DNA from: a virus
DNA length: 20,441 bases
Virus record (IMG/VR): IMGVR_UViG_3300020166_000144
Location: 1-20,441 of that record
Strand: one strand, 5' to 3'
In this document: positions 1,789-20,441 of the stretch, piece after piece
How the letters are laid out: each line of letters starts with the position of its first letter
Position numbering within the stretch: position 1 is the first letter of the stretch
Made by a program: the position numbers and the translations under genes
The notes under the pieces: model-generated
The model's input: only the letters and a program-made list of their open reading frames with translations
Database searches by the model: none
Told to the model about the DNA's origin: nothing

Positions 1789-4080
1789 ATGGCAATTAAT
1801 TTAAAACAAATATTAATATCAGATACTGATAACATCAAACTGGACAAAGTTAATTATAATTTTGATCAGTTAGTTGCTAACGGAGGTGGACCTCAAGGTT
1901 CTCAAGGAACTGATGGTAATCCTGGTTATCAAGGTATTACAGGTTATCAAGGTGACCAAGGTATTCAAGGTGACCAAGGTATTCAAGGTCCTCAAGGAAA
2001 TAATGGCCAAGGTATATGGAAAATAAACACAGGAAACGGACAAGGATTAGTAGATACTATTCTACCTATACATAATATATCAGGCCCTCAAGGAACAATA
2101 AACCCGCCATCGGTTATTGTAGGTTATAAAACAGATGCCCCTGAATACGCCCAAAGTTATATTGAAGAAGATTCAGTATGGGTTATACATAGACAAGATC
2201 CTTTTAGTAGCAATTTAGAATTAAAAACTTTAGACGTAGATCACAGGTTTGCGCTTACTTTATCTAAAGATGCAACACAGACACAACCAACTGCAATATT
2301 AGATATGAGTTTTAAAACTAATATTCAAGGAGGTACAAATGCAACTAACATTTTAAATCAAGCTGCAGATATATTTAAGTGGAAATCACATTTTGGCGGA
2401 ACCGATTTAATAACATTAGATTCTTCTGAGCTTAATGTTGATGTTGATTCTTTTTTCAATAACGACGTCGAAATAAGCGGAGCTTTACAAGTTGCTTCTG
2501 GAAACCCAGATGTTGACAAGATTGCAGTTTCAACAAACTCTGATGGTTTAATAGGTTTTAAAACTATAGATGAAATAGGGGGAGTTGTTCCAGTGGGTAC
2601 AATAGTATCAATGGTCCCTTCTTATTTTACTGATTCAACTAAATTTATAAATCAAGAAACAATAACTAGTTCTTCAAGCAATCCTTTACCGATAAAGGTA
2701 GGATCAGGTATTAATCAGCATGAAGGTTGGTATTTATGTAATGGTAAAACATGGACAGATGGTGAAAGCTCTTTTGCGACGCCAGACCTGAATTCATTTT
2801 CATATCAAATAGATAACGACCCTAATATTTCTACCTCAACAAGCCAAGGAGACGCAAATGTACAAAATTTAAATCTTTCAATCATTGGTGGAGCTGATGC
2901 TAGTTTAACAGGTGTTTATAATAGTGGCCCGGGAGATTACACGATTACAGGTACTATTGACCCAGTTGAAGAAACTTCTTTTTATACAACGACCGGAACT
3001 GCGTATGTTGTTAAAAAACTTCCACAAATTATTTATTTAGGAGTTGCTGATTTATATTGGAACGACGCTGGTGTAAATCCAGAGGATGTGTTCCCAACAT
3101 GGACTTTAAGTGATTGGACTGGATCTGTCGCATCGACAGTACCACACACGGGTGGACATCCAGTGTTTACTTTTGGAAATTCTCCAAATGTAAGGCCTCA
3201 ATCATCACAACAACCTTTGCCTCAAAATACTACCCAAAGCAATATTACATATTCTAATTATGCGTATGAAGTCCAGATACCAACCGGATATAACAATGCC
3301 GGGACATATTTACAAGCAACAACAAGCGTTGATTTATTAACTTCATTCGTTCAAACATATACTGCGACTTTATTATTTAATCCAGCTTCTCCTAATACAG
3401 GAAGTATGTTAAGTTATTCTGATATGTATTCAGGAATTCCAGGTGATCAAGGGGCTGGGACAATTACAGTAAACGCGCCTAATGATTATTATTTTGTAGA
3501 TGATCCTTCAATAACTTATAGTGCAGGACCTCAAGCAAATGCTAGTATATTATTTGATGATGATGTTTTTGCAGCTGACGGTACTACTAGTATTGGTAAA
3601 ACATACGATACCTCTTTTACAGTAGGATCTGGAACTACTCAAACAACTTATGTGTATGCGAGTGATGTTCCACAAATAATAACACAAGATACTATACGCA
3701 CATCGGTAGTTACGCATCCTGGAAGTGGAGGACTTAATTGGGAATGGGATTTCGATAGTAGCGTTATACAGAATCAAACCAACCAACACGTATATGTTGG
3801 AAGACCAAATGCAACATATAACTTGTCAGTAAAATGTTGGTACGTTGGACCAAACACTGCACCAACAGGGATACAGGAATTTCAAATCACTATTTTTCCA
3901 GATCTAAGTAACAACAACATAGGATATACTACCCCAATTAGCATATTTATGTCAGATACTGGTAATAGTTCAACTCCACCGAGTGGTGGAAGTGCGGCTC
4001 GACAGTACGGGGGATCATTAACAATAACATCAACAGGTACTGGAACTGGAGATTTTGAAAACAGAATGGCACATATATAA
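1789..4080 (+). CDS. Collagen-repeat tail fibre protein with tail-collar-like module
   Basis: Probable trimeric tail fibre. Residues 1-30 (MAINLKQILISDTDNIKLDK and on) look like a short attachment domain. Residues 34-75 form about 14 Gly-X-Y triplets rich in Gln and Asp, the collagen-like type that makes triple-helical shafts in phage fibres. A tail-collar-like module follows around residues 263-340, with PVGTIVSM and GWYLCNGKTW (313-322). The long C-terminal half is beta-rich, with Thr/Ser/Gly-rich stretches near the end, and probably forms the tip. It starts 32 nt after the preceding paralogous fibre gene, so the two may be co-expressed and co-assemble. The start is supported by an A/T-rich upstream tract and no in-frame upstream Met. 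Chaperones or host-range partners are not visible. Confidence 0.78.
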   Translation: MAINLKQILISDTDNIKLDKVNYNFDQLVANGGGPQGSQGTDGNPGYQGITGYQGDQGIQGDQGIQGPQGNNGQGIWKINTGNGQGLVDTILPIHNISGPQGTINPPSVIVGYKTDAPEYAQSYIEEDSVWVIHRQDPFSSNLELKTLDVDHRFALTLSKDATQTQPTAILDMSFKTNIQGGTNATNILNQAADIFKWKSHFGGTDLITLDSSELNVDVDSFFNNDVEISGALQVASGNPDVDKIAVSTNSDGLIGFKTIDEIGGVVPVGTIVSMVPSYFTDSTKFINQETITSSSSNPLPIKVGSGINQHEGWYLCNGKTWTDGESSFATPDLNSFSYQIDNDPNISTSTSQGDANVQNLNLSIIGGADASLTGVYNSGPGDYTITGTIDPVEETSFYTTTGTAYVVKKLPQIIYLGVADLYWNDAGVNPEDVFPTWTLSDWTGSVASTVPHTGGHPVFTFGNSPNVRPQSSQQPLPQNTTQSNITYSNYAYEVQIPTGYNNAGTYLQATTSVDLLTSFVQTYTATLLFNPASPNTGSMLSYSDMYSGIPGDQGAGTITVNAPNDYYFVDDPSITYSAGPQANASILFDDDVFAADGTTSIGKTYDTSFTVGSGTTQTTYVYASDVPQIITQDTIRTSVVTHPGSGGLNWEWDFDSSVIQNQTNQHVYVGRPNATYNLSVKCWYVGPNTAPTGIQEFQITIFPDLSNNNIGYTTPISIFMSDTGNSSTPPSGGSAARQYGGSLTITSTGTGTGDFENRMAHI
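1951..1986 (+). repeat. Two perfect 18-bp tandem repeats in the collagen-like shaft
   Basis: The 18-base unit ggtgaccaaggtattcaa occurs twice in direct succession and encodes Gly-Asp-Gln-Gly-Ile-Gln. Flanking triplets are diverged versions. Perfect repeats inside a Gly-X-Y shaft are prone to slippage and probably allow shaft-length variation. Confidence 0.85.
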
Positions 4081-4901: not shown

Positions 4902-5115
4902 AAAAAATAACAATGGCGCAATCATCTAAATTTGCAAGACTTGACGAAGACGTACTATTAGAATTTATCTATCACGATCAAAGCGCGACTGATAACGCTA
5001 AAATAGAAAAAATAACAATGGCGCAATCATCTAAATTTGCAAGACTTGACGAAGACGTACTATTAGAATTTATCTATCACGATCAAAGCGCGACTGATAA
5101 CGCTAAAATAGAAAA
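4902..5115 (+). repeat. Perfect 105-bp tandem duplication spanning a start codon
   Basis: Bases 4902-5010 and 5007-5115 are identical, a period of exactly 105 nt (35 codons, in frame). Each copy includes the upstream tract aaaaaataaca, the ATG and the first 32 codons. The junction shares four A residues, compatible with microhomology-mediated duplication. No synonymous difference separates the copies. Confidence 0.95.
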
Positions 5116-7072
5116 CGACGAAAACGGAAGTCAACTTAAATACTTAAACACATCAAACACGAATAGTGCTGATAGAATGCTTATTCACGAGTTAGGAAGT
5201 GATGTTGTTAATTTTACAGTAAATATTGCAAATGGATATGTATATGTAAACAATTTTGCTTCTAGAGAGTTAATCTTAAAGAATGGAATGACATATAAAT
5301 TTGATCTAAATGATGCATCAATTGATAATCAATCTGGATTTTATATAAATGGAATAGCATATACACCTAATAATGGAATAGTAACGTATACGCCTAATAC
5401 AAATGGAACATATACATATTATTATAGAAATGCAGCGGGAACTTCTTTTATAGGGGGTAATTTAGTTGTTGGCAATAGAGCTAATTCTCTATATGCAAGA
5501 CCAGAACAGGAAACAGGTAATACAATTAAAACAGCACCTGGGGAAGTTGGAAGATACTACGCGGTACCAACTGATAATTCAAATACACTAGCTCTTTTAG
5601 GAAATGATATAGATTATTTAGATTCTCAAGAATGGGAAGGAACAAATTCAACTGGTTTAGGAGTTGTTCAATCTTCACAAGTACAGGCAGTATGGTATGA
5701 TACTATAAGACTTCATTTAAGAACAGGATATAGTTTTAGTGGTAGAGGATATGAAGGGTTTTTATTCCAAGTAAAAGTAAAAAGAAATTCAGGAGAATAT
5801 GGTTATTTTACTTCTGTTGTTTATTTAAACTCTTCAAGCTTTGAGGTTCAAAATCCTAATCCATTTACTCTAGTTGATAGTTCTTTTTCAAAATATATTG
5901 AAATTAAAGTACCTGCACTAATCCACATGTCAGATGCTAATAAGAATTTAGATTTTTCTGAAACTTTTTTTGGAACAGGATCTGATGCAATACTTTCAAC
6001 TACAAACTATGAAATATCTTTAGGATTAATATCTGAAGTTAAAACAGTTACCGGATATGATTATATTGAAATTACTGATACAAAGGAAATAACATTAGCA
6101 CAGGAAGACGAATTTGTAGATATAGCCGTTAATTTAAATGAAGATCCTAATGGAGACTATTTTCAAATATATGGAACTAAAGATGGTTCTCAATCAGGGT
6201 TTGAAAACTATGTTAATGGTAGAATAGAAACATCGTCAGATGATATTACAGTTTTCTATGATGTTGAAGTTAGCGAACAAATTGGTTTAAACTATATAAG
6301 TACATATCAATCAACGTTCTCACAAGTTTCAAATTTTGATCAAAACTTAATATACAGGCCTGTAATTTTAAATTCTTCTGTAAGTAGTAACTTTTTATTA
6401 CAAGTATCTATGAGAATTTATAACGAAACAGATAATACACAAATATTAAAAAGAGCTTCTTTAATATACAACAAGCCTAAGAAATATGGTAGAAGAATGT
6501 CTAAAATAAATTTAAGTGGAAATTATTCTCCAACTGTAATTTACAATAAATTAGACAACACATCAGTTAATAGAGAAATTAATCAATTTGTTAACTCAGC
6601 AAGACCTGTTATAGGAGAAACTAAATACGTGCCAGTTGCGATCAATGTATATGGCGTCGTTGCAGGATCTACTAATGTAACATTACAAGGAACTGAAATA
6701 GAGTCAACAAATGAAATTGATTATTCTCAAAATGGAGAAGGAGAAATTACTTTATCTAAAGTATCTGATAACTTTATTAAATTTAGTATTGCTAAACCAG
6801 CTGGAGATTCTTTAGAATCTATAAGTTTAGTTAATGCCGATGATATTGTTTTAATTATTAAATCAGGAGCAGTAGAACAACAAGTTAGCCACAACCCAAC
6901 TTTCCCAGATATTGATCTAGGAAATGGAGAAGTTTTATTTAAAGTAAATAAGGCAGTCGCAACGAGATTTGATAAAGAAGATACTAATATAGATCAAGAT
7001 AAGTTTTATATTAATTTAAAGAATGGAGAAACAGAATCTCTATTGTATCATGGTAAAGTAAATATTATATAA
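4913..7072 (+). CDS. Large structural-type protein of unknown function, duplicated N-terminus
   Basis: Not recognised as a named family. Without the duplication the protein would begin at the second ATG (5018) and have 684 residues. The segment starting MAQSSKFARLDEDVLLEFIY is present twice at residues 1-35 and 36-70. After that come a KNGMTYKFDLND segment resembling small cupredoxin-like or Ig-like beta domains, then a long series of beta-rich stretches with few Cys. There are no signal peptide, transmembrane segments or enzyme motifs. Its place between fibre genes and a tail-tube-like gene, with a 1-nt stop/start overlap (TAATG) to the latter, points to a virion or baseplate component. Either ATG could be used, since both have the same upstream A-rich tract. 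Confident as a gene, uncertain in role. Confidence 0.6.
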   Translation: MAQSSKFARLDEDVLLEFIYHDQSATDNAKIEKITMAQSSKFARLDEDVLLEFIYHDQSATDNAKIENDENGSQLKYLNTSNTNSADRMLIHELGSDVVNFTVNIANGYVYVNNFASRELILKNGMTYKFDLNDASIDNQSGFYINGIAYTPNNGIVTYTPNTNGTYTYYYRNAAGTSFIGGNLVVGNRANSLYARPEQETGNTIKTAPGEVGRYYAVPTDNSNTLALLGNDIDYLDSQEWEGTNSTGLGVVQSSQVQAVWYDTIRLHLRTGYSFSGRGYEGFLFQVKVKRNSGEYGYFTSVVYLNSSSFEVQNPNPFTLVDSSFSKYIEIKVPALIHMSDANKNLDFSETFFGTGSDAILSTTNYEISLGLISEVKTVTGYDYIEITDTKEITLAQEDEFVDIAVNLNEDPNGDYFQIYGTKDGSQSGFENYVNGRIETSSDDITVFYDVEVSEQIGLNYISTYQSTFSQVSNFDQNLIYRPVILNSSVSSNFLLQVSMRIYNETDNTQILKRASLIYNKPKKYGRRMSKINLSGNYSPTVIYNKLDNTSVNREINQFVNSARPVIGETKYVPVAINVYGVVAGSTNVTLQGTEIESTNEIDYSQNGEGEITLSKVSDNFIKFSIAKPAGDSLESISLVNADDIVLIIKSGAVEQQVSHNPTFPDIDLGNGEVLFKVNKAVATRFDKEDTNIDQDKFYINLKNGETESLLYHGKVNII

Positions 7073-7635: not shown

Positions 7636-8004
7636 ATGAAAACATTTTTAGATTACATGACGAATGCTAATGCAACTGAAGCAGAACTTCAAATATTGCA
7701 AGAATCTTTACAGTCAGAGTGGACTGAATCTTTAGAGGAAAAAGTAGATTCTGCTCTTGAAGAATTTGTATCAGAGTACAAACAAGAGGATGGAACATAC
7801 GATATTGAAAGACTCAATAACGAAATGACTAATGAAGGTATTTTAGGTTCTATTTTTGGAGGTCTTACTGGATTTGCTCTAGGAAAAACAATTGGTAAAG
7901 CAGTTGCTAAAGTCTTAGGCATTGAAAAAGGAATAATGTATGAAATGCTAACCTCTCGATTAGTTGGTGCCGCTCTTGGTGCTGCAATCGGTAAAAAACT
8001 ATAA
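7636..8004 (+). CDS. Small glycine-zipper protein with internal-protein-like N-terminus
   Basis: Function unknown. The N-terminus MKTFLDYM resembles the start of T4 internal proteins (MKTYQEFIAE). Residues 15-67 are acidic and helical, and include a gp21-type site L21-Q22-E23. Residues 68-95 and 109-122 are two Gly-spaced hydrophobic helices (GSIFGGLTGFALGKTIGK and LVGAALGAAIGKKL), a glycine-zipper pattern typical of membrane-inserting proteins. A packaged protein that helps DNA cross the host membrane is one reading; a holin-like lysis protein is another, but the acidic N-domain is long for that. It sits 12 nt after the tail-tube-like gene and 2 nt before the resolvase gene. No Shine-Dalgarno motif precedes the ATG. 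Confidence 0.5.
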   Translation: MKTFLDYMTNANATEAELQILQESLQSEWTESLEEKVDSALEEFVSEYKQEDGTYDIERLNNEMTNEGILGSIFGGLTGFALGKTIGKAVAKVLGIEKGIMYEMLTSRLVGAALGAAIGKKL

Positions 8005-13300: not shown

Positions 13301-15286
13301 ATGGCAAAAATGAGTAGAATTAGTTCTTTTAAAACTTTCTCTGAAATTAGAGAAATGGAAAATGTAACTAAGTTACAACAGGAAAACCAGATAAAAAGAT
13401 CTGAGTTAACTTCTAAAATAGAAAAAATTTTAGATGAAATGAACATAACTTCATTCGATAATTTAGAAGAAGAAGTTAGAAACGAACTTATATCTAAAGC
13501 ATTTGGTTTAGTTGGTGAAGCTGATAAAACAAAGGTTTCTAAGAAAGAAATTAAATTTCATTTAGATGCTTTTCAAAAGGGAGATATCGACGGTAGTGAT
13601 TTAGCACAGGCTATTTCAGAAATTATGTTTGGTAAGGTTAACGCACCAGGTATTAAAGAAAATAAAATTAAAATGATGGATGATAATCATTTAATCAAAT
13701 TAGTTAGAAAGAACAATGTTGAAGCTGCAGAAGAATTAGCAGCTAGAGATTACTTAGACGATGAGGACGTTATTAAAGTGAAGAATGGAGGAGGTAAAGA
13801 CCTAGCAAATACTCTTATGCACTCTCTAATAAGCAGAAGAGATAATAAAAAGAAAAGAATGAACGAAGATTTAGTTGATGATGAACCAATTCAAGAAGCA
13901 ACTGTTGTGATGGACGCAATAAACCCTGATGATAAAGATTTTTTAAAATTCTTAAAAAAGAATAAAGTTAAAGTAATCGATACCGTAAAATCAGGGCCAA
14001 GTGGACATCCTGAAATTACAATGCAAGGAAAAAGAAAAGATCTTGAAACAGTGTTATCTGATAGTGAATTAGGATGGGACGATCCGGGTTTAGCAGAATT
14101 TATTGAAGAATCAGTAAACATTTCAGAAGCAGTAATAGTTACAGGTAGAAGAGACGCTAAAAAAGTTTTAACAGCTTATACTAAATTTTTCCAAAAATAT
14201 CCAGCACTAGCTGATAGAAGATTCGCAGGATTACATTTAGGAGCAATTAAAAGCTTAATGGTTTCTGCATTAACAGACGCTAACTTCCATAGAGAATCAG
14301 CAGCATGTGGAAAGGCTATTAAAGGAGCAAGGCTTCAACCGGTATATATTAAACCAATTGAATTAAACAAAACAGAGATTAAAGTACCTGTTGGTAAAGT
14401 ATTATCAATCTTAGATGATAATGCATCTCTTATTTCTGGTGCAGCTGGATTTTCTGGTTTAGGTATTGCTGAAGGAACAGCGTTATATTTAGATTCTATT
14501 AAATACGTTAAAGAAGCAGAAGCAGTTATTACATGTTTTAATTCTACATTTGAAAGTGAAGTGGCTGATGTAACAGAAGGTAATGCATTTTTAGGAGCAA
14601 GAGCTAAGGCTATTGAAGAAGATGCCGAAGAGTTTGAATTTGAAGGTAAAAAATATCCAGTAATTAAAGAGACTATAGAATTAACTGAAGCTGAAGTTAC
14701 TTCTGACGAAGAATTTAAAGAGTACGCTACTACAGTTTTACAAAAAGCATTTGGAAAAGAATATGATGACGCAAAAGCACAAGAGGTTATTAGTGGGATT
14801 CTTTCTAAATCAGACGGAGATTATGGAGCTGCTGTAGGTATATTAACTTCTTCATTAGGAGAATCAGTAATTACTGAAAAGACATATAACAAAAAGTCTT
14901 TAATGAAAGCTATGAAAGCCGATGACGGTATGATTCAATTAGGAAATGGACAAGAGTATGTTATTTACGCTTACGGTAATGGTAATGACGATAACGACAA
15001 CATGTGGAATGATAAAACAATCTTTGCATTAGACCAAGATGGAGAAGAACATGAGATCAACTATTCTGATATTGTAAGTTATAATGAAGCTAACGCCGAT
15101 GGTACTATTTCAGATGATGAAGACGAAAAAAGAGCAGAATTAATAAATAGAGTAAAGGGAGAAATGGAAGAGCTTTTAGCATCTGCTGAATTTGATGCTG
15201 AAGAAATTGGAGGACCTTTTAGATCACCTGGTATTATGGCTGATATTAGAAAATTATTAGACAAAAAAGTTAAGAAATTTAAATAA
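13301..15286 (+). CDS. Probable internal head protein with multiple prohead-protease sites
   Basis: No named family is recognised for this 661-residue acidic protein. The N-terminus (MAKMSRISSFKTFSEIRE) resembles T4 capsid-targeting sequences, with a gp21-type (I/L)-x-E site at I16-E18. Further candidate sites occur at I197-E199, I268-E270, I274-E276, I455-E457, L461-E463, L519-E521 and I524-E526, several followed by Ala, Ser or Thr. They fall between blocks: a helical N-terminal region (20-190), a small basic KxKK block (210-265), a central domain with DRRFAGLHLGAIKSL (306-320), a helical block with DGDYGAAVGILTSSL (505-519), and a C-terminal beta/acidic block. This suggests a polyprotein cut during head maturation, but a non-cleaved core or DNA-associated protein is possible. 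It ends 6 nt before a strong terminator. Confidence 0.6.
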   Translation: MAKMSRISSFKTFSEIREMENVTKLQQENQIKRSELTSKIEKILDEMNITSFDNLEEEVRNELISKAFGLVGEADKTKVSKKEIKFHLDAFQKGDIDGSDLAQAISEIMFGKVNAPGIKENKIKMMDDNHLIKLVRKNNVEAAEELAARDYLDDEDVIKVKNGGGKDLANTLMHSLISRRDNKKKRMNEDLVDDEPIQEATVVMDAINPDDKDFLKFLKKNKVKVIDTVKSGPSGHPEITMQGKRKDLETVLSDSELGWDDPGLAEFIEESVNISEAVIVTGRRDAKKVLTAYTKFFQKYPALADRRFAGLHLGAIKSLMVSALTDANFHRESAACGKAIKGARLQPVYIKPIELNKTEIKVPVGKVLSILDDNASLISGAAGFSGLGIAEGTALYLDSIKYVKEAEAVITCFNSTFESEVADVTEGNAFLGARAKAIEEDAEEFEFEGKKYPVIKETIELTEAEVTSDEEFKEYATTVLQKAFGKEYDDAKAQEVISGILSKSDGDYGAAVGILTSSLGESVITEKTYNKKSLMKAMKADDGMIQLGNGQEYVIYAYGNGNDDNDNMWNDKTIFALDQDGEEHEINYSDIVSYNEANADGTISDDEDEKRAELINRVKGEMEELLASAEFDAEEIGGPFRSPGIMADIRKLLDKKVKKFK

Positions 15287-15292
15287 AATAGA

Positions 15293-15330
15293 AAAAAGAT
15301 GACCTGGATTTTTCCGGGTCAAATCTTTTT
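15293..15330 (+). terminator. Strong intrinsic terminator
   Basis: GACCTGG (15301-15307) pairs with CCGGGTC (15314-15320, one G-T) around an ATTTTT loop. AAAAAGAT on the left pairs with ATCTTTTT on the right after a 2-base bulge. The T-run makes it a terminator in the + direction, and the A-run gives it potential in the other. It is the only clear terminator in the window and marks a transcription boundary. Confidence 0.85.
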
Positions 15331-15344
15331 ATTATATTAGTAAT

Positions 15345-15647
15345 ATGAAGAAAACAAAATTATACGAAGAGTTTATTAACGAAGAAATCTATTTAACCCA
15401 TAGTGAGATCGTAGGTTATCAATTTGATAAGTTTTTAGAATCATATCTTAAACTTAATAAAGATAATAAAACGGTTTATGATAAAAAAGAAGATTTTACG
15501 TATGGTTTTAGAAAAGGATCTAAAACTGCACATTGGAAATATGACCATGATAATTTTGAACTACACCACAGTGAAAAAGAATTTCATGTTTTAGGTCTTA
15601 TAAATTTTTATAAACAAGCATCTAAAGGACATCCTTGGTCTAAATAA
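15345..15647 (+). CDS. Small protein with capsid-targeting-like N-terminus
   Basis: A 100-residue protein of unknown function. The start MKKTKLYEEFINEE closely follows the T4 internal-protein pattern (MKTYQEFIAE, cut after I-A-E): here Y-E-E-F-I-N-E with I11-N12-E13 as the predicted cut. The mature part is rich in His, Lys, Tyr and Phe (TAHWKYDHDNFELHHSEKEF), mixed charge, soluble, with no Cys. It lies 14 nt downstream of the strong terminator, so it is the first gene of a new transcription unit, followed after 10 nt by the ligase-like gene. It is a good candidate for a small injected protein; its target cannot be read. Confidence 0.6.
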   Translation: MKKTKLYEEFINEEIYLTHSEIVGYQFDKFLESYLKLNKDNKTVYDKKEDFTYGFRKGSKTAHWKYDHDNFELHHSEKEFHVLGLINFYKQASKGHPWSK

Positions 15648-15657
15648 AATAAGCACA

Positions 15658-16941
15658 ATGAAGATATTATCATTTAAAGATTTTTTAATAGAAAGAGAAA
15701 ATAAAGAAGTATTAAACTCTAAATTAATTTTAGAAGGTGGAGCAGCAGGACACATGTCACATCCATTTGATGAAAAAGATTTGACATTTGCAGATTTTAA
15801 AAAGATAGTAACTGCAGGTCTTCAAGGTGAATTAAACTTTGAGGAAGAAGCCACTGAAAAAACTGACGGTCAAAATGTATTTGCAACAGTTCAAGATGGA
15901 GAAGTAAAATTTGCCAGAAATAAAACTGAATTAGCAAATCCAATGGACCTTGCTACTTTTAAGAATAAGTTTGAAGGACATGCTAGTAAATTAGTACAAG
16001 ATACTTTTCAATTTGCTGCAGAAGATTTAGCAAACTCATTAAATAAATTATCCCCTAAAGATTTAGAAGTTTTTGATAACGGTAAAAACTGGATGAACAT
16101 GGAATTAATTTATTCTAAGAATCCAAACGTTATCTATTATGATCGTGATGTTATTCAATTTCATGGTATAAAGAAAACTGATGGTGAAGGTAATACTACT
16201 GGAGAGGATAACAAACCAGCAAGATCAATCGCGAAAGCAATGCAAGATCTTAAAGTTAATGTTGGTAAAACATTTACAGTCATTCCACCTCAAATTATTA
16301 AATTAGGTAAAGATTTAGATTTTGAAAAGAACAAGTCTAAATTTATAAAACAAATAGAAGCATTAAGAGACCGTTATAAATTATCAGATGCTGATGAAGT
16401 TTCTAGATATCACGAAATGTGGTGGAGAGAAACAATAGATACAAATTTCCCTGATTTACAACAAGACTATAAAGAAGGTTTATTATTAAGATGGGCTTAT
16501 GGAGATAAGAAGTCTTTAAATATGAGAAGCCTTGCAAAAGAAATAGGAAAAGATGAAGCAGCTTCTGTTAAGAAATTTGACAAAGAAGATGTTAAAAAGA
16601 AATATAAAGAAAACATTAGACCGTTCGAAGATTTGTTCTTAGAACTAGGATCTATAATTCTTAAGAATGCTTCTAATTTTGTAGCAGCAAATCCAGACAA
16701 GGAAATGCAAAGACTACATGATCAAATTAGAAAAGAATCAGATAAAATTAAAAAAGGTGGAGGAGAAGCTCAAATTGCAAAAGTTGAAGCTGAACTTGCA
16801 AGATTAGATAGAATTGGAGGAATAGAATCTATTATACCAACTGAAGGAATAGTGTTTGTATATAAAGGAAAAACAATGAAATTAACAGGTACGTTTGCAG
16901 CCATTAATCAATTAATGGGTATCATAAAATACGGTAGATAA
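15658..16941 (+). CDS. Ligase-fold nucleotidyltransferase with capsid-targeting-like N-terminus
   Basis: Likely member of the covalent nucleotidyltransferase superfamily (RNA/DNA ligases, capping enzymes). Visible motifs: I, EKTDGQN with the nucleophile Lys68 (67-73); III-like, WMNMELIY (145-152); IV, TEGIVFV (395-401); V, MKLTG (407-411). The N-terminus MKILSFKDFLIERE fits the F-x-x-F-L targeting pattern. A second gp21-type site, I24-L25-E26 followed by Gly, would leave a mature protein starting GGAAGHMSHPFD. Between motifs III and IV is a long Lys/Glu-rich helical insert (285-385) not typical of small RNA ligases. Whether it ligates RNA, DNA or modifies another substrate is unknown. The next gene starts one base after its stop, indicating coupled expression. 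Confidence 0.7.
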   Translation: MKILSFKDFLIERENKEVLNSKLILEGGAAGHMSHPFDEKDLTFADFKKIVTAGLQGELNFEEEATEKTDGQNVFATVQDGEVKFARNKTELANPMDLATFKNKFEGHASKLVQDTFQFAAEDLANSLNKLSPKDLEVFDNGKNWMNMELIYSKNPNVIYYDRDVIQFHGIKKTDGEGNTTGEDNKPARSIAKAMQDLKVNVGKTFTVIPPQIIKLGKDLDFEKNKSKFIKQIEALRDRYKLSDADEVSRYHEMWWRETIDTNFPDLQQDYKEGLLLRWAYGDKKSLNMRSLAKEIGKDEAASVKKFDKEDVKKKYKENIRPFEDLFLELGSIILKNASNFVAANPDKEMQRLHDQIRKESDKIKKGGGEAQIAKVEAELARLDRIGGIESIIPTEGIVFVYKGKTMKLTGTFAAINQLMGIIKYGR

Positions 16942-16942
16942 C

Positions 16943-18826
16943 ATGGCACTTACAAAATTAAGAACACATTTCAACGAAACTAATATTAATGAGTTTCAAA
17001 GATTATTAAAAAACAGAGTAATGGTTGTTGAAAAGATTTCAGCACCTGCGTTTTACGTTAGAAGATTTGAAAATAAATTTGAATTTTATAAATCTTCAAA
17101 ATCTAAGCCTTTAACAATTATCGATAGAACTATTATGTCTCTTTACGAAATAGCTATTAAACATATACAAAGTTTAAGCCCTAATAGTAAAGAATTATTA
17201 CCAGGTAATTACAGGTTTGGTTTTGAATATTTACCAGAAGAAAAAGTTTCTGAATATGAATATACAAAAACACCTAAAAACAATTTAATATTAACACATA
17301 TACATCAACTTAGCGATAGCGGAAAAGTAAAAAAGACAATCATAGATCCAGTTGTTATAGAAAAATGGTCTAAAATATTAGAAGTACAGTCTCAAGGTGT
17401 TTTATTTGATGGAACACTAAACTCTCTTCAAACATCTAAATTAATTAAATTATTAGAAATGAATGATAAATCTTTTTCTGATAACTTTGATTACGACATA
17501 GAAACCGATAAACAAGTTTCTTTTACTAAAGAAATTTATAAAATATTTAACGCTAATTCTTCTTCAACAATTTTACAAGAAGATTTAGAATCAGAAATAG
17601 ATGGTTTAGTTTTAAATTTTGTAGAAGGTAAAAAAATACAATCTTTTAAATTAGAAGACTTTAGTAGAAATCCAATAAATGAAGCTAGAGAAGGTTCACA
17701 CACATATCAAATTGCAATCGCAGATATATTAGAGTTTTTTGTAAATTATGATTTTAACGAAACGCAACTATTAGAAAAGAAAGCAGATGAAAGATATATC
17801 GAATTAATGTCAGTTGCTTTTAATAAATACGTAGAAAAAAATGCTGCAAGATATATTGGAGTTAATTTCCAAAATGCAGAATTTTCTTCTTCAGATTTAT
17901 TTAAGTTAAATACAGCCTTTATAAAAAACGAAAAAACATTAAAGAATGTTTCTAACGAAGTTTTATCTAGTTTATTTAAAATAACTTTAGGAACTTTTAG
18001 AAAACAAAAAACAAAATCAACAGATATATTAAATGATGATATGATTTCTCAATTAAATAATGTTGTTGATAAAATTAACGAAGTTGTCTTTCTAGAAAAT
18101 TCAGATGAAAATTCTATATATGATTACAAAAATTTCATGCTTCATAATAATATAAAAAGTGAGATAACTTTAAATGAAGCCTTAACTGTAAAATATGGAG
18201 AACAAGGAAAAGAGCCAGTAAACATGTTTGTTGGTAGATTTCAACCATTTACATTAGGCCATGCTAAAGTTTTAGAAGCAATTCACAAAGAGAATGGATA
18301 TCCAGTTATCGTATTTTTAATTAAAGCAAAGAATAAAAAGAAAGGTGACGAATTTAGAAAACCATATTCTGAAGATTTACAAATTAAAATGTTTAAACAG
18401 GTTCAAAAGCAATATAAATTCTTAAAAGAAATTATAGTTTTAGATAGAGGAGCAATTGATTATATGTTTAATGAACTTAGACCAAAATATGAACCAGTTC
18501 TTTGGGGAACAGGATCTGATAGAATGAAATCTTATGGATATCAAGTAAATAATGATTCTTATAGAGATCAATTAAATGTAAGATCTGATTTTGGATTATT
18601 TGAAATACCAAGAAGCGATGATAATATTTCAGCAACTCAAGTAAGAAACGCGATGTTAGATGGAGATGAAAAATTATTTAAAAAGACTACACCAAAGTCA
18701 ATCCATAAAATGTATGATATTTTAAAGTCTGAACTTGAAAAATCAATGGAACTTGTAGTTGCTTCTAAGATTGTGTCAGAATCAATTATGACGTTTGAGC
18801 AATATATGAATAAATTAAAATCATAA
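16943..18826 (+). CDS. Fusion of ligase-like domain and NMN adenylyltransferase-like domain
   Basis: Two domains. The N-terminal part (about 1-245) aligns by eye with the preceding ligase-like protein: EKISAPAFYV against EKTDGQNVFA, so the motif I Lys is kept but Asp-Gly is replaced by Ser-Ala; a motif III-like FGFEYL; motif IV EIDGLVLNF; and motif V FKLEDF. After a helical middle region, the C-terminal domain (about 425-600) is a HIGH-type nucleotidyltransferase: GRFQPFTLGH (431-440) and ISATQVR (562-568), the ATP-binding motifs of NadM/NadR-type NMN adenylyltransferases, which make NAD from NMN and ATP. Another HIGH-family activity is possible. The extreme C-terminus TFEQYMNKLKS resembles a capsid-targeting element. 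One-base gap to the upstream gene implies coupling. Confidence 0.75.
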   Translation: MALTKLRTHFNETNINEFQRLLKNRVMVVEKISAPAFYVRRFENKFEFYKSSKSKPLTIIDRTIMSLYEIAIKHIQSLSPNSKELLPGNYRFGFEYLPEEKVSEYEYTKTPKNNLILTHIHQLSDSGKVKKTIIDPVVIEKWSKILEVQSQGVLFDGTLNSLQTSKLIKLLEMNDKSFSDNFDYDIETDKQVSFTKEIYKIFNANSSSTILQEDLESEIDGLVLNFVEGKKIQSFKLEDFSRNPINEAREGSHTYQIAIADILEFFVNYDFNETQLLEKKADERYIELMSVAFNKYVEKNAARYIGVNFQNAEFSSSDLFKLNTAFIKNEKTLKNVSNEVLSSLFKITLGTFRKQKTKSTDILNDDMISQLNNVVDKINEVVFLENSDENSIYDYKNFMLHNNIKSEITLNEALTVKYGEQGKEPVNMFVGRFQPFTLGHAKVLEAIHKENGYPVIVFLIKAKNKKKGDEFRKPYSEDLQIKMFKQVQKQYKFLKEIIVLDRGAIDYMFNELRPKYEPVLWGTGSDRMKSYGYQVNNDSYRDQLNVRSDFGLFEIPRSDDNISATQVRNAMLDGDEKLFKKTTPKSIHKMYDILKSELEKSMELVVASKIVSESIMTFEQYMNKLKS

Positions 18827-18838
18827 GGAAATTTCGAA

Positions 18839-18846
18839 TATATAAT
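18839..18846 (+). promoter_or_regulatory. A/T-rich TATATAAT box, candidate promoter element
   Basis: TATATAAT lies 35 nt before the start of the last gene. The same box occurs at 8961-8968 before the SSB gene, and a one-base variant (TATATAAA) at 1765-1772 before the collagen-repeat fibre gene. It resembles, but does not match, the T4 late promoter TATAAATA. In such A/T-rich sequence chance matches are common. Confidence 0.25.
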
Positions 18847-18873
18847 CTTATAATATAAAATAAAATAAAAATC

Positions 18874-20441
18874 ATGGACAAATCACACTCTAATCAAGAT
18901 GATAGAATAGATGAAGGAAAAATAACTATAAAAAGACGTTATACTGAAAATTATCCTGCTAAAACCGTTGGCGCATCTGCTAGAATCAGGAATAAAATGT
19001 TAGAAGCAATTTCAGATGGTGCTATCACTCAAGATGAATTCAATTCTATTATTGCAGAATTATCTGCAGATTCAAAAAGATGGATGTCTCGTAATTCTAA
19101 ACTTTTTAATATTACAGAGTCTGGTATAACGTTAACAGCGTTAGGTAAGAAAATATTATCTCAAATTACAATAAACGAAAAAACAAAAAAGAATCCAGAA
19201 ATATGGGTTCCTGGTAAATTTGATAAAGATCTTTCTAAATTAACAGCCGATGAAATAACAATAGACAATTTAAAAAAATTATCAAAAAAACATAGAGTGT
19301 TTTTAGATGATGCAATTAAGTACGCTGAATATAGCTATGATATTGATTTAGATGAAAATCAAACAATAAAAAATAATAATATGAAAACACAATTAGTATT
19401 TGAATCTTTCGGAGATTTTGTAAACTCATTAAATAAAAATAATGAAGAATTAAACGAAGGAACTAGAGGTCAATTTGGAATGATTGATAAAAAAGGAAAT
19501 ATACAATCAGTATATATGCACTATGATTCATACCCTGAAAACATTTTACCTATAATAAAAAAGGGTTATAGAAACGCTAAAAAAGTACAGGCAGTTATTG
19601 ATAGAGGAGATACTTCTGGATTAGATAAAACAGTCGATACCATGAATTTTTATGAAGATGGTAGAAAACCAACATCTGGTAAAAAAGCACAAATGGATCG
19701 TTACATTAAGAAGGCCGCTGATGAAGGTGGTGCAGAATATATTTACTTATATGATGAATCTGAAAAAACTTGGTATATGGTTGATATCTATGGAGATATG
19801 CAATTAGTTCCAGCATTTGAATCAGTAGTAAACGAATCATACGATTACGATGAAGTAGCACAATCTGAATTTGGAATGGATTACGATCAATTAGGTCCAG
19901 GTGAAAAAGAATGGGTACGTGATGAAATAGACAACATGTCTGAGACTAACGAAGCAGTTAATAATATCGCGTATGTTAAAGCTGGAAAATTAGGTAATAA
20001 TGACCAATTTCTAGCGAAGAGATCTTTATCATGGACATTATCAGTTGATTTAGGTTTAAAAGCATCTGACGAATTTGTTGGACCATGGCTAGGATTTGAT
20101 CACGTATCACTATACGCTATTGGTAAAAAAGGAGGAACAATTCTTGATGACGCTTTAACAGGTAAATATACTTATGATGAATTAAAAGCAGCCGCTGCAG
20201 ATTTCTTAGGTATTAAAGAATCAGTAGACGTTGAACTTAATGAAGCATTCAAATCTTCTAAGTTAAGAAACTTAATGAACATGGATCAAGCATCAGCTTA
20301 CGGTAAGAATAAGAATTTAGCTTCTGCATTCTACGGAATGTCTAAAGTTAAATTAGATCAAGTTGGTGATGAATCTTTAGTAGATGTAGATCCTAAAACA
20401 GCATACAAGCAATACGCAAACAACAAAGACTTTGTTGTATT
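18874..20441 (+). CDS. Probable internal head protein, multi-block, 3' end outside window
   Basis: The frame is open for 522 codons from ATG 18874 to the window edge, so the gene is truncated. No named family is recognised. Residues 1-165 form a soluble helical block (KMLEAISDGAITQDEFNSII and KRWMSRNSKLFN). Met170 (19381), after a run of Asn codons, starts MKTQLVFESFGDFVNSLN, which again fits the capsid-targeting pattern and could be a second start or a domain junction. gp21-type sites follow at L193-N194-E195 (then Gly), I447-K448-E449 and L455-N456-E457 (then Ala). Between these lies a beta-type domain with MHYDSYPENILPIIKKGY. Like the 661-residue gene, it may be processed during head maturation. 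The ATG has the usual A-rich upstream tract. Confidence 0.6.
   Translation, partial: MDKSHSNQDDRIDEGKITIKRRYTENYPAKTVGASARIRNKMLEAISDGAITQDEFNSIIAELSADSKRWMSRNSKLFNITESGITLTALGKKILSQITINEKTKKNPEIWVPGKFDKDLSKLTADEITIDNLKKLSKKHRVFLDDAIKYAEYSYDIDLDENQTIKNNNMKTQLVFESFGDFVNSLNKNNEELNEGTRGQFGMIDKKGNIQSVYMHYDSYPENILPIIKKGYRNAKKVQAVIDRGDTSGLDKTVDTMNFYEDGRKPTSGKKAQMDRYIKKAADEGGAEYIYLYDESEKTWYMVDIYGDMQLVPAFESVVNESYDYDEVAQSEFGMDYDQLGPGEKEWVRDEIDNMSETNEAVNNIAYVKAGKLGNNDQFLAKRSLSWTLSVDLGLKASDEFVGPWLGFDHVSLYAIGKKGGTILDDALTGKYTYDELKAAAADFLGIKESVDVELNEAFKSSKLRNLMNMDQASAYGKNKNLASAFYGMSKVKLDQVGDESLVDVDPKTAYKQYANNKDFVV

Follow-up and report, generated by a model that had tools for sequence, protein, structure and literature searches.

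A T4-type capsid-targeting-like tag and predicted prohead-protease-released cargo polyproteins in uncultured T4-like phages

The internal head proteins IPI, IPII, IPIII and Alt of phage T4 carry a capsid-targeting sequence (CTS) and are cut by gp21 (Mullaney and Black, as cited in the accessible text of PMC9026906). In the ten-residue signal of IPIII, residues 4 and 7 serve mainly for targeting, and residues 8 and 10 for processing (accessible text of PMC9026906). Other described systems of packaged proteins include the polyvalent proteins of phages and conjugative elements (Iyer et al. 2017; accessible text of PMC5512222) and the ejection proteins of the giant phages phiKZ, 201phi2-1 and SPN3US (accessible parts of PMC5694885 and PMC10052503). 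The principle of such a tag is already known from T4, as are shuffled, injected multi-domain proteins from the accessible text of Iyer et al. 2017. Here, we describe a stretch of viral DNA, the IMG/VR record IMGVR_UViG_3300020166_000144 (hereafter the window, that is, the whole stretch analysed, which is the entire 20,441-base record and probably a fragment), in which a CTS-like element recurs on different proteins. An earlier sequence-only reading of the window had proposed that five proteins share this element and are packaged and injected with the DNA. We consider it likely, judging from the comparison of sequences, that the region encodes T4-type tagged head cargo that has been expanded into polyproteins released by the prohead protease. 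The tagged genes and the modules of the window lie on the plus strand, genes are named by their first position, and ↓ marks a candidate cut.

The five motif strings named in the sequence-only reading are real: SFKTFSEIRE occupies residues 9-18 of the 13301 protein, LYEEFINEE starts at residue 6 of 15345, SFKDFLIERE at residue 5 of 15658 and TFLDYM at residue 3 of 7636, and SFGDFVNSLN starts at residue 178 of the 18874 open reading frame (ORF), eight residues past an in-frame Met at position 19381 (residue 170). The likeness to the T4 signal also holds, in that the element agrees with it at the residues that matter experimentally (accessible text of PMC9026906). The claim that I/L-x-E accompanies several copies stands for 15345 (INE), 15658 (LIE) and, with an offset, 13301 (IRE); none directly follows the element in 7636, and past the 19381 copy there is none before LNE↓G (residues 193-195). 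We use a strict tag, [FLY]xx[FY][ILV]xE, whose fixed positions match T4 capsid-targeting residues 4, 7, 8 and 10. Among the window proteins it is found in 15345 and 15658 only, with partial forms in 13301, 7636 and the 19381 copy.

That the motif exceeds chance as a set is true to a modest degree of its loose form and strongly so of its strict form. In the four relatives used for genome-wide counts, which were read as 20-kb stretches, the loose pattern [FY]xx[FY][ILMVS] is only 1.8-2.6-fold richer in the first 20 residues than in protein interiors, whereas a strict tag starting in the first 20 residues occurs in 14 of 197, 9 of 208, 4 of 100 and 11 of 200 ORFs, against means of 0.76, 0.82, 0.58 and 1.01, respectively, for shuffled N-termini. 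These 38 strict-tag proteins are spread over 25 body families, and a few of them, such as G003 148945 (tag at residue 11) and G007 45934 (residue 14), are probably chance matches. In T4, used as a control, four of 250 ORFs carry the strict tag, namely ipII, ipIII, gp61.1 and one likely chance match. A wider count over 98 loci, the window and the four genomes (1,623 distinct proteins of at least 70 amino acids) found a strict tag starting in the first ten residues of 183 proteins belonging to 38 body families, in 33 of which it begins at residue 7. By a second route, IMG/VR DNA was scanned for M-K-H-[IV]-[KQ]-L-F-E-[QE]-F, a pattern that fixes residues 1-10 only. The scan gave at least 120 stretches, 80 of which were listed and analysed; at least six contigs were already among the relatives used, which makes the method new and the sequences partly not. 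Among the stretches listed, there are 91 distinct ORFs, with I, V or L at residue 11 in 78, E at residue 13 in 80 and, most frequently, A at residue 14 (27), and the 86 ORFs of at least 60 amino acids fall into 59 body families. Since the pattern left residues 11 and 13 free, the two processing positions can be said to accompany the two targeting positions across proteins that are otherwise unrelated. If AT-rich, helix-rich proteins matched a loose pattern by chance, this would account for the roughly two-fold enrichment of the loose form at N-termini, but with a strict pattern at a fixed position and unspecified residues recovered on unrelated bodies, we find this explanation scarcely credible. 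These comparisons support the view that unrelated proteins share the element as an N-terminal tag, which agrees with the T4 CTS.

Further tagged proteins were noted in passing. T4 gene 61.1 (NC_000866, 18966-19130) encodes a protein that starts MKTFKEFIKE, a full CTS-like tag, and continues TSGAVVNKGP. A stretch similar to the latter presumably lies just past the cut site of gp23, and it is possible that gp61.1 is an unrecognised internal head protein. G001 87463 has a strict tag match at its start (MSKHILLKGFLNED) and by eye resembles ribonuclease HII, being either a chance match or a tagged enzyme, and G003 97508 and G007 125451 encode a tagged protein of 445-450 amino acids with a strong match to phrog_1250 and weak matches to AAA ATPase and helix-turn-helix domains.

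The tag is linked to the head through the genes for head assembly. The sequence-only reading had called for a gp21-type protease, and a Pfam Peptidase_S77 prohead protease is indeed present above cut-off in 15 of 16 long relatives, including the nearest one, G015 (97% identity at the ligase-like protein described below); the window record, a 20-kb fragment, has no S77 match. The protease shares one ORF with a long coiled-coil-like part, the presumed scaffold, and ELDHP and ISSRA, which we take to be the catalytic His and Ser motifs of the prohead protease, are present in all 18 non-redundant protease-scaffold proteins. Non-redundant sets were obtained with a k-mer filter, which kept 18 of 64 scaffold, 32 of 64 core-gene and 41 of 80 major capsid protein sequences and, with coverage limits applied, 29 of 50 ligase-like and 33 of 52 NMNAT sequences. 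Portal, protease and major capsid protein were identified via PHROGs in G003 and G007. Between portal and protease lies a small acidic gene, suggested by its place to be a prohead core gene. A loose regular expression finds the tag in 29 of its 32 non-redundant copies, and the strict one in ten; LFEQFH stands in two of the remaining three, and the last (L174) is an ORF of greater length, either miscalled or fused. The tag might instead direct proteins to the tail, the membrane or a host partner, as its presence on genes adjoining tail genes (7636, and 123750 in G003) could indicate. This we regard as very unlikely, given that the residue pattern is the same as that of the tested T4 head signal, that a tagged gene adjoins portal and protease, and that the cut-site type is the same as in the scaffold.

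Two observations concern the surroundings of the capsid gene. The gene that follows it (L160-L239) has a tag-like FxxW start in 37 of 43 non-redundant copies when W is allowed, and three cargo-like proteins (G007 104155, L006 16531 and L015 14963) share a GMGxVxLPxxxxxGSGD-like stretch with the major capsid protein, where it lies in the N-terminal part.

The sequence-only reading treated its five proteins as separate, and it is here that it proved incomplete, since two of the five, 13301 and 18874, are best read from their sequences as shuffled multi-module polyproteins with E-S-V-V-[NT]-E↓A linkers, that is, with many internal candidate cut sites. Polyprotein A (13301-15286; 661 amino acids) is composed of the tag SFKTFSEIRE and modules A1-A6: following A1 are A2 (13898-14128; residues 200-276, from IQE↓A to ISE↓A, with a weak phrog_5922 match), A3 (14129-14689; residues 277-463, from ISE↓A to LTE↓A, with a mostly helical model), A4 (14690-14878; residues 464-526, from LTE↓A to ITE↓K), A5 (14879-15088; residues 527-596, whose downstream site, YNE↓A, has Y at P3) and A6 (15089-15286; residues 597-661, with six matches only). 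Polyprotein B (18874-20441), which is cut by the window end, contains B1 (18916-19404), which follows an IDE↓G site, B2 (19459-19836; phrog_1987, from LNE↓G to VNE↓S), B3 (19837-19953; 39 amino acids with one other match, and a downstream TNE↓A without a hydrophobic P3), B4 (19954-20244), which precedes LNE↓A, and the start of B5 (20245-20441), again cut by the window end. When both proteins are compared with close homologues, whole domains are inserted, lost or swapped, and this takes place at [ILV]xE↓A linkers. A4 occurs in tandem in L058, L041 and L043, and A5 in several different parent proteins, whereas B4 stands alone behind its own tag and E↓A in L055, L039 and L096 (105-109 amino acids), for example as MKHIKLFEQFIGE↓AVN in L055_16681, with 81% identity over the matched stretch. 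Stand-alone tagged relatives were found for nine of 66 module clusters, a rough count obtained by single linkage. Modules are also met in the scaffold: a relative of A2 is inserted in the G003 protease-scaffold protein (46% identity over 71 amino acids, E 4e-18), a 37-residue piece of A3 lies inside G007-type scaffolds (E 3e-5), and 5 of 18 non-redundant scaffolds hold some module fragment. A loose tag is present in 23 of 24 non-redundant A1 homologues and in the first 18 residues of 23 of 38 non-redundant B1 homologues. The 13301 protein had no tblastn match in the collection of annotated phages, and hence that collection yielded no cultured phage with polyprotein A.

Linker-rich proteins, with at least three matches to ES...[ILVM]xE[AGKS], make up 77 of 713 distinct proteins longer than 250 amino acids, against 0.20 by shuffling, and the 228 linker contexts have the consensus E-S-V-V-[NT]-E↓A, with N or T at P2, which the pattern leaves free, in 164. 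Between pairs of polyproteins, local alignments end within four residues of a linker site in 32.8% of cases compared with 14.0% at random positions, and a control with D, K, N or Q for E gave 12.0% versus 17.9% (1,644 boundaries, which are not independent). For site enrichment, a comparison of linker-picked polyproteins with a linker-lacking set was partly circular and was replaced by sets picked by homology and not by sites, namely 24 A1 homologues, 38 B1 homologues and 411 other proteins longer than 250 amino acids, the last still including tagged proteins. The broad motif [ILV]xE[AGSK] was observed 260 times against 111 expected in A1 homologues, 323 against 132 in B1 homologues and 913 against 773 in the others, and the narrow motif [ILV][NT]E[AG] exceeded its shuffled level 15.1-fold, 11.9-fold and 2.1-fold, respectively; the D, K and Q control motifs in A1 homologues stood at 1.1, 1.4 and 1.1 times expectation. 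The scaffold parts (n = 18) show the same type of site, with 243 broad motifs against about 76 expected, all 18 individually below 0.05, and a narrow motif at 6.7 times expectation (D version 1.4, K version 0.6). In all four genomes, linkers are denser in tagged proteins (0.85-1.94 per 1000 amino acids) than in untagged ones (0.13-0.36). Alternatively, 13301 and 18874 could be ordinary uncut multidomain proteins, in which ESVVNEA is a recombination joint or a flexible hinge spread by shuffling; module swaps at linkers are seen directly, and a linker that is copied would stay conserved even if it were never cut. We hold this to be improbable, as dozens of unrelated single proteins have an N-terminal tag with this [ILV]xE at its end, and as enrichment of the site type extends to scaffolds but is slight in other proteins.

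Among the single cargo genes, the ligase-like one encodes a predicted propeptide (15658-15735), composed of the tag SFKDFLIE, a variable spacer and LILE↓ at residue 26, and a predicted mature RNA-ligase-like enzyme (15736-16941), which starts GGAAGHMSHPFD and contains EKTDGQN. In all 29 non-redundant orthologues, a tag within the first 20 residues is followed by a variable spacer and then by [IVL][LMV]E↓GG, preceded by L in 28 and followed by the conserved domain, and residues 9-32 are of low confidence in the AF2 model. The motif EKTDGQN is invariant in 21 aligned sequences and fits KxDG, presumably the motif I lysine of the ATP-dependent RNA/DNA ligase superfamily. The AF2 model (pLDDT 67.7, pTM 0.53) has a tRNA ligase as its best Foldseek match (E 0.015) and 6vtd as its best VIA match (Z 6.2, root-mean-square deviation 5.4, 172 residues aligned), where a Z below 8 can mean a common arrangement; the 21 best VIA rows are all ligases of RNA or DNA, with one Naegleria enzyme recurring in many of them, and a sequence-profile search of the PDB gave no significant match. 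The invariant motif and this middling structural match point to an RNA-ligase-like enzyme, which, from its tag and site, is likely cargo. The counterpart in LR756500, a 462-kb uncultured phage, keeps both tag and site (MKFLKSYEEFLNENLILE↓GG), and the 67 kb of that genome that were read contain no protein with two or more linkers.

The next gene encodes an NMNAT protein (16943-18826; 627 amino acids), which the sequence-only reading had left out of its set together with the linkers inside 13301 and 18874. It has LNE↓AL at residue 412, an NMNAT (cytidylyltransferase-like) domain at residues 428-569 (PF01467, 39.7 bits against a curated cut-off of 21) and a tag at its C-terminus, TFEQYMNKLKS (18791-18823); its N-terminal half has no Pfam match. 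C-terminal T[FY]xx[FY] is found in 33 of 33 orthologues in one set and 32 of 33 in a second, the remaining one being truncated, and [LIVM]xE↓[AG]L lies ahead of the NMNAT domain in all 33 non-redundant orthologues. A site at residue 247 was dropped, as only 10 of 33 have it. A different contig, L251, encodes an NMNAT-like protein with an N-terminal tag, which supports the NMNAT as cargo. Gene 15345 (15345-15647; 100 amino acids) has the strict tag LYEEFINE↓E, and its orthologues read MKHIKLYEQFVSE↓G, MKHVKLFEQFVNE↓A and MKQVRLFEQYVHE↓N. Gene 7636 (7636-8004; 122 amino acids), directly downstream of a tail-tube-like gene, starts MKTFLDYM and ends in a C-terminal glycine-zipper-like region; Fxx[FY] is present in the first 14 residues of 31 of 33 proteins of its family, and the full [LI]xE in only some. 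The TNE↓G common to all 33 is not claimed as a site, for want of a hydrophobic P3.

Outside the window, two tagged 2H phosphoesterases (L279:982-1518 and L250:3747-4292) are distantly related to the anti-CBASS protein Acb1 (T4 57B): against Pfam Acb1, L279 is just over the cut-off and L250 under it, and BLASTP against T4 57B gave an 18-residue match only. The Pfam scan of tagged bodies covered 68 of 74 sequences, and PADLOC on 68 tagged proteins gave five single-member matches only (best E 1.5e-4).

Instead of being cargo, the tagged proteins could be parts of the prohead core or scaffold that are cut and lost at maturation like T4 gp22, gp67 and gp68. A core or scaffold role would explain why the gene at the gp67/68 position bears a tag and why module relatives lie within some scaffolds, and T4 core proteins are cut to short fragments by the same protease (accessible text of PMC5694885). 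However, the sites are concentrated where modules meet; conservation of the ligase-like and NMNAT domains sets in directly past the cut, whereas the ligase propeptide spacer varies; an NMNAT-like protein and 2H phosphoesterases are among the tagged bodies of other contigs; and module content differs among close relatives. On balance, we think a core or scaffold role unlikely and retain tagged cargo as the preferred reading.

Within polyprotein B, the sequence-only reading had singled out the internal Met at 19381, a choice that appears sensible. The ATG and the second tag (19381-19458; MKTQLVFESFGDFVNSLN...LNE↓G) form a candidate internal start that would give a shorter tagged product. A Met precedes such a second tag at 29 internal sites, nearly all in 18874 homologues, and in 21 of 38 non-redundant B1 homologues. 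In the genes of these phages, Shine-Dalgarno-like words are rare and starts are preceded by A-rich DNA; over the 20 nucleotides upstream, A content is 70% at the 29 internal tag sites, compared with 50% for gene starts and 39% for the remaining internal ATGs, with the reservation that the sites are related and the regular expression requires a Met. Upstream composition of this kind suggests, and does no more than suggest, internal initiation at 19381.

A number of findings weigh against tagged, protease-released cargo. Packaging and cutting are read from sequence only, and injection is a further step of deduction. The 18874 ORF has no tag at its first Met, and the same is true of 15 of 38 B1 homologues. 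Across whole proteomes, C-terminal tags show no enrichment (0-3 genes per genome versus 0.45-0.82 expected), and a general C-terminal tag was dropped on that account, the element being conserved in the NMNAT family only. As for the protease, G001 has no S77 match despite many tags, and the candidate site of the major capsid protein, GI[NT]E↓[AS], has E in 15 and D in 26 of 41 non-redundant sequences; with D at P1 in that many, this protein was rejected as a witness of cut specificity. Not all controls stayed flat: a second control of the boundary test was slightly up (7.9% versus 5.5%), the D, K and Q motifs in B1 homologues reached 1.5, 1.1 and 1.4 times expectation, the Q motif in scaffolds 2.7 times, and the E motif in the protease part 1.9 times (43 versus 22.9), the last two of which indicate that composition or repeats contribute to the enrichment. 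For the modules, Pfam gave nothing above cut-off in A2-A5, B1, B2, B4 and a relative's B5, and a PDB fold search with the model of A3, the only module modelled singly, gave no match at E <= 0.001. Of two further phages, Microcystis phage Mel-JY01, which has a relative of the ligase, shows no strict tag in 20 ORFs of 19 kb, and the cultured Tenacibaculum phage PTm1 is, unlike the relatives studied here, without tag expansion (2 of 296 ORFs).

With these points taken into account, the cargo reading keeps its core, the shared tag, the link to head genes and a likely ligase-like cargo, and the mechanism we propose is modelled on T4 for uptake, cutting and ejection alike. The tag, ending in [ILV]xE, would bind the prohead core, so that the protein is taken into the assembling head; its place would usually be N-terminal, but C-terminal in the NMNAT protein and perhaps behind an internal start in the 18874 gene. 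The prohead protease would then cut past the glutamate and free the cargo. In two cargo genes, small domains appear to be strung together by E-S-V-V-[NT]-E↓A linkers, in which case one tag could import several domains and the same protease release each singly. Judging from sequence, modules come and go and are exchanged at linkers, travel among the two polyproteins and the stand-alone tagged genes, and in some cases ride on the scaffold itself. Once freed, the RNA-ligase-like enzyme, the NMNAT and the other domains would be ejected with the DNA and take effect immediately, with host take-over and counter-defence as their most likely roles. Only a few members suggest functions, which for the window are RNA repair and NAD supply and elsewhere those of Acb1-like 2H phosphoesterases. 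On a broader scale, a large group of uncultured T4-like phages may pre-load effectors combinatorially via one tag and release them by protease for counter-defence before phage expression, using shuffled polyproteins and dozens of tagged single proteins, in some cases even grafted on the scaffold, with a changeable set per virion; for this wider picture we see the case as evenly balanced. If true, a 10-to-13-residue tag and an E↓A linker would be a sequence-level reader for virion cargo, genome sequence alone would single out, among the many genes of unknown role in such T4-like phages, those active in the first minutes of infection, and many small domains would be marked as candidate counter-defence proteins. 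The injected arsenal would then grow by modules added to a string rather than by separately tagged genes, and the tag and linker would offer testable parts for protein delivery via phage heads.

Ahead of the cluster, the window carries tail-fibre-like, tail-tube-like, UvsY-like and UvsW-like genes. The tail-fibre-like protein at 1789-4080 has collagen-like Gly-x-y repeats close to its N-terminus. In the protein encoded at 4913-7072, the first 35 or so residues (MAQSSKFARLDEDVLLEFIYHDQSATDNAKIE) are in tandem repeat, and its counterpart in G015 (684 amino acids) has one copy at the start. The T4-type late promoter TATAAATA is not enriched (three matches versus 5.5 expected).

In the literature searched, which left most subscription papers outside, we found no description of this tag in marine phages or of cargo polyproteins released by a prohead protease via repeated linkers. 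The gene order portal - unnamed gene - protease/scaffold - capsid is like that of PTm1, in which protease and scaffold are also annotated in one ORF (GenBank) and three ORFs have at least two linker-like matches, one of them the protease-scaffold. The tagged 2H proteins of the other contigs share a PHROG with the anti-CBASS Acb1 of T4 gene 57B, a distant relation that lies outside the window. Like the giant-phage ejection proteins, which are head proteins whose propeptides are cut after x-x-E by a relative of T4 gp21 and which are co-ejected with the DNA, the proteins described here would be cut past a glutamate; the giant-phage propeptides are mostly longer than 100 residues with an A/S/G-x-E site, and the accessible text of PMC5694885 does not describe shuffled strings of small modules. 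Like polyvalent proteins, 13301 and 18874 are large, shuffled, multi-domain and predicted to be packaged and injected, and the accessible text of PMC5512222 itself draws a comparison with the polyproteins of RNA viruses. That text proposes that polyvalent proteins are processed by peptidase domains within them, zincin-like or, in rare cases, assemblin-like, whereas here release seemingly depends on a separate prohead protease, repeated E↓A linkers and a T4-type tag; no Pfam peptidase domain was found in 13301, 18874 or the scanned modules, which match nothing above any cut-off. With the T4 internal proteins, the present set shares a short N-terminal tag, aromatic residues at the targeting and I/L-x-E at the processing positions, an S77 prohead protease (here in 15 of 16 long relatives) and varied bodies behind a common tag. 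In T4, the strict tag marks four of 250 ORFs, including two known CTS proteins, whereas in the sequences analysed here it is found on 38 families and is accompanied by predicted polyproteins of several modules with candidate sites between them, a tag at a C-terminus, what may be an internal start, and relatives of the modules on some scaffolds.

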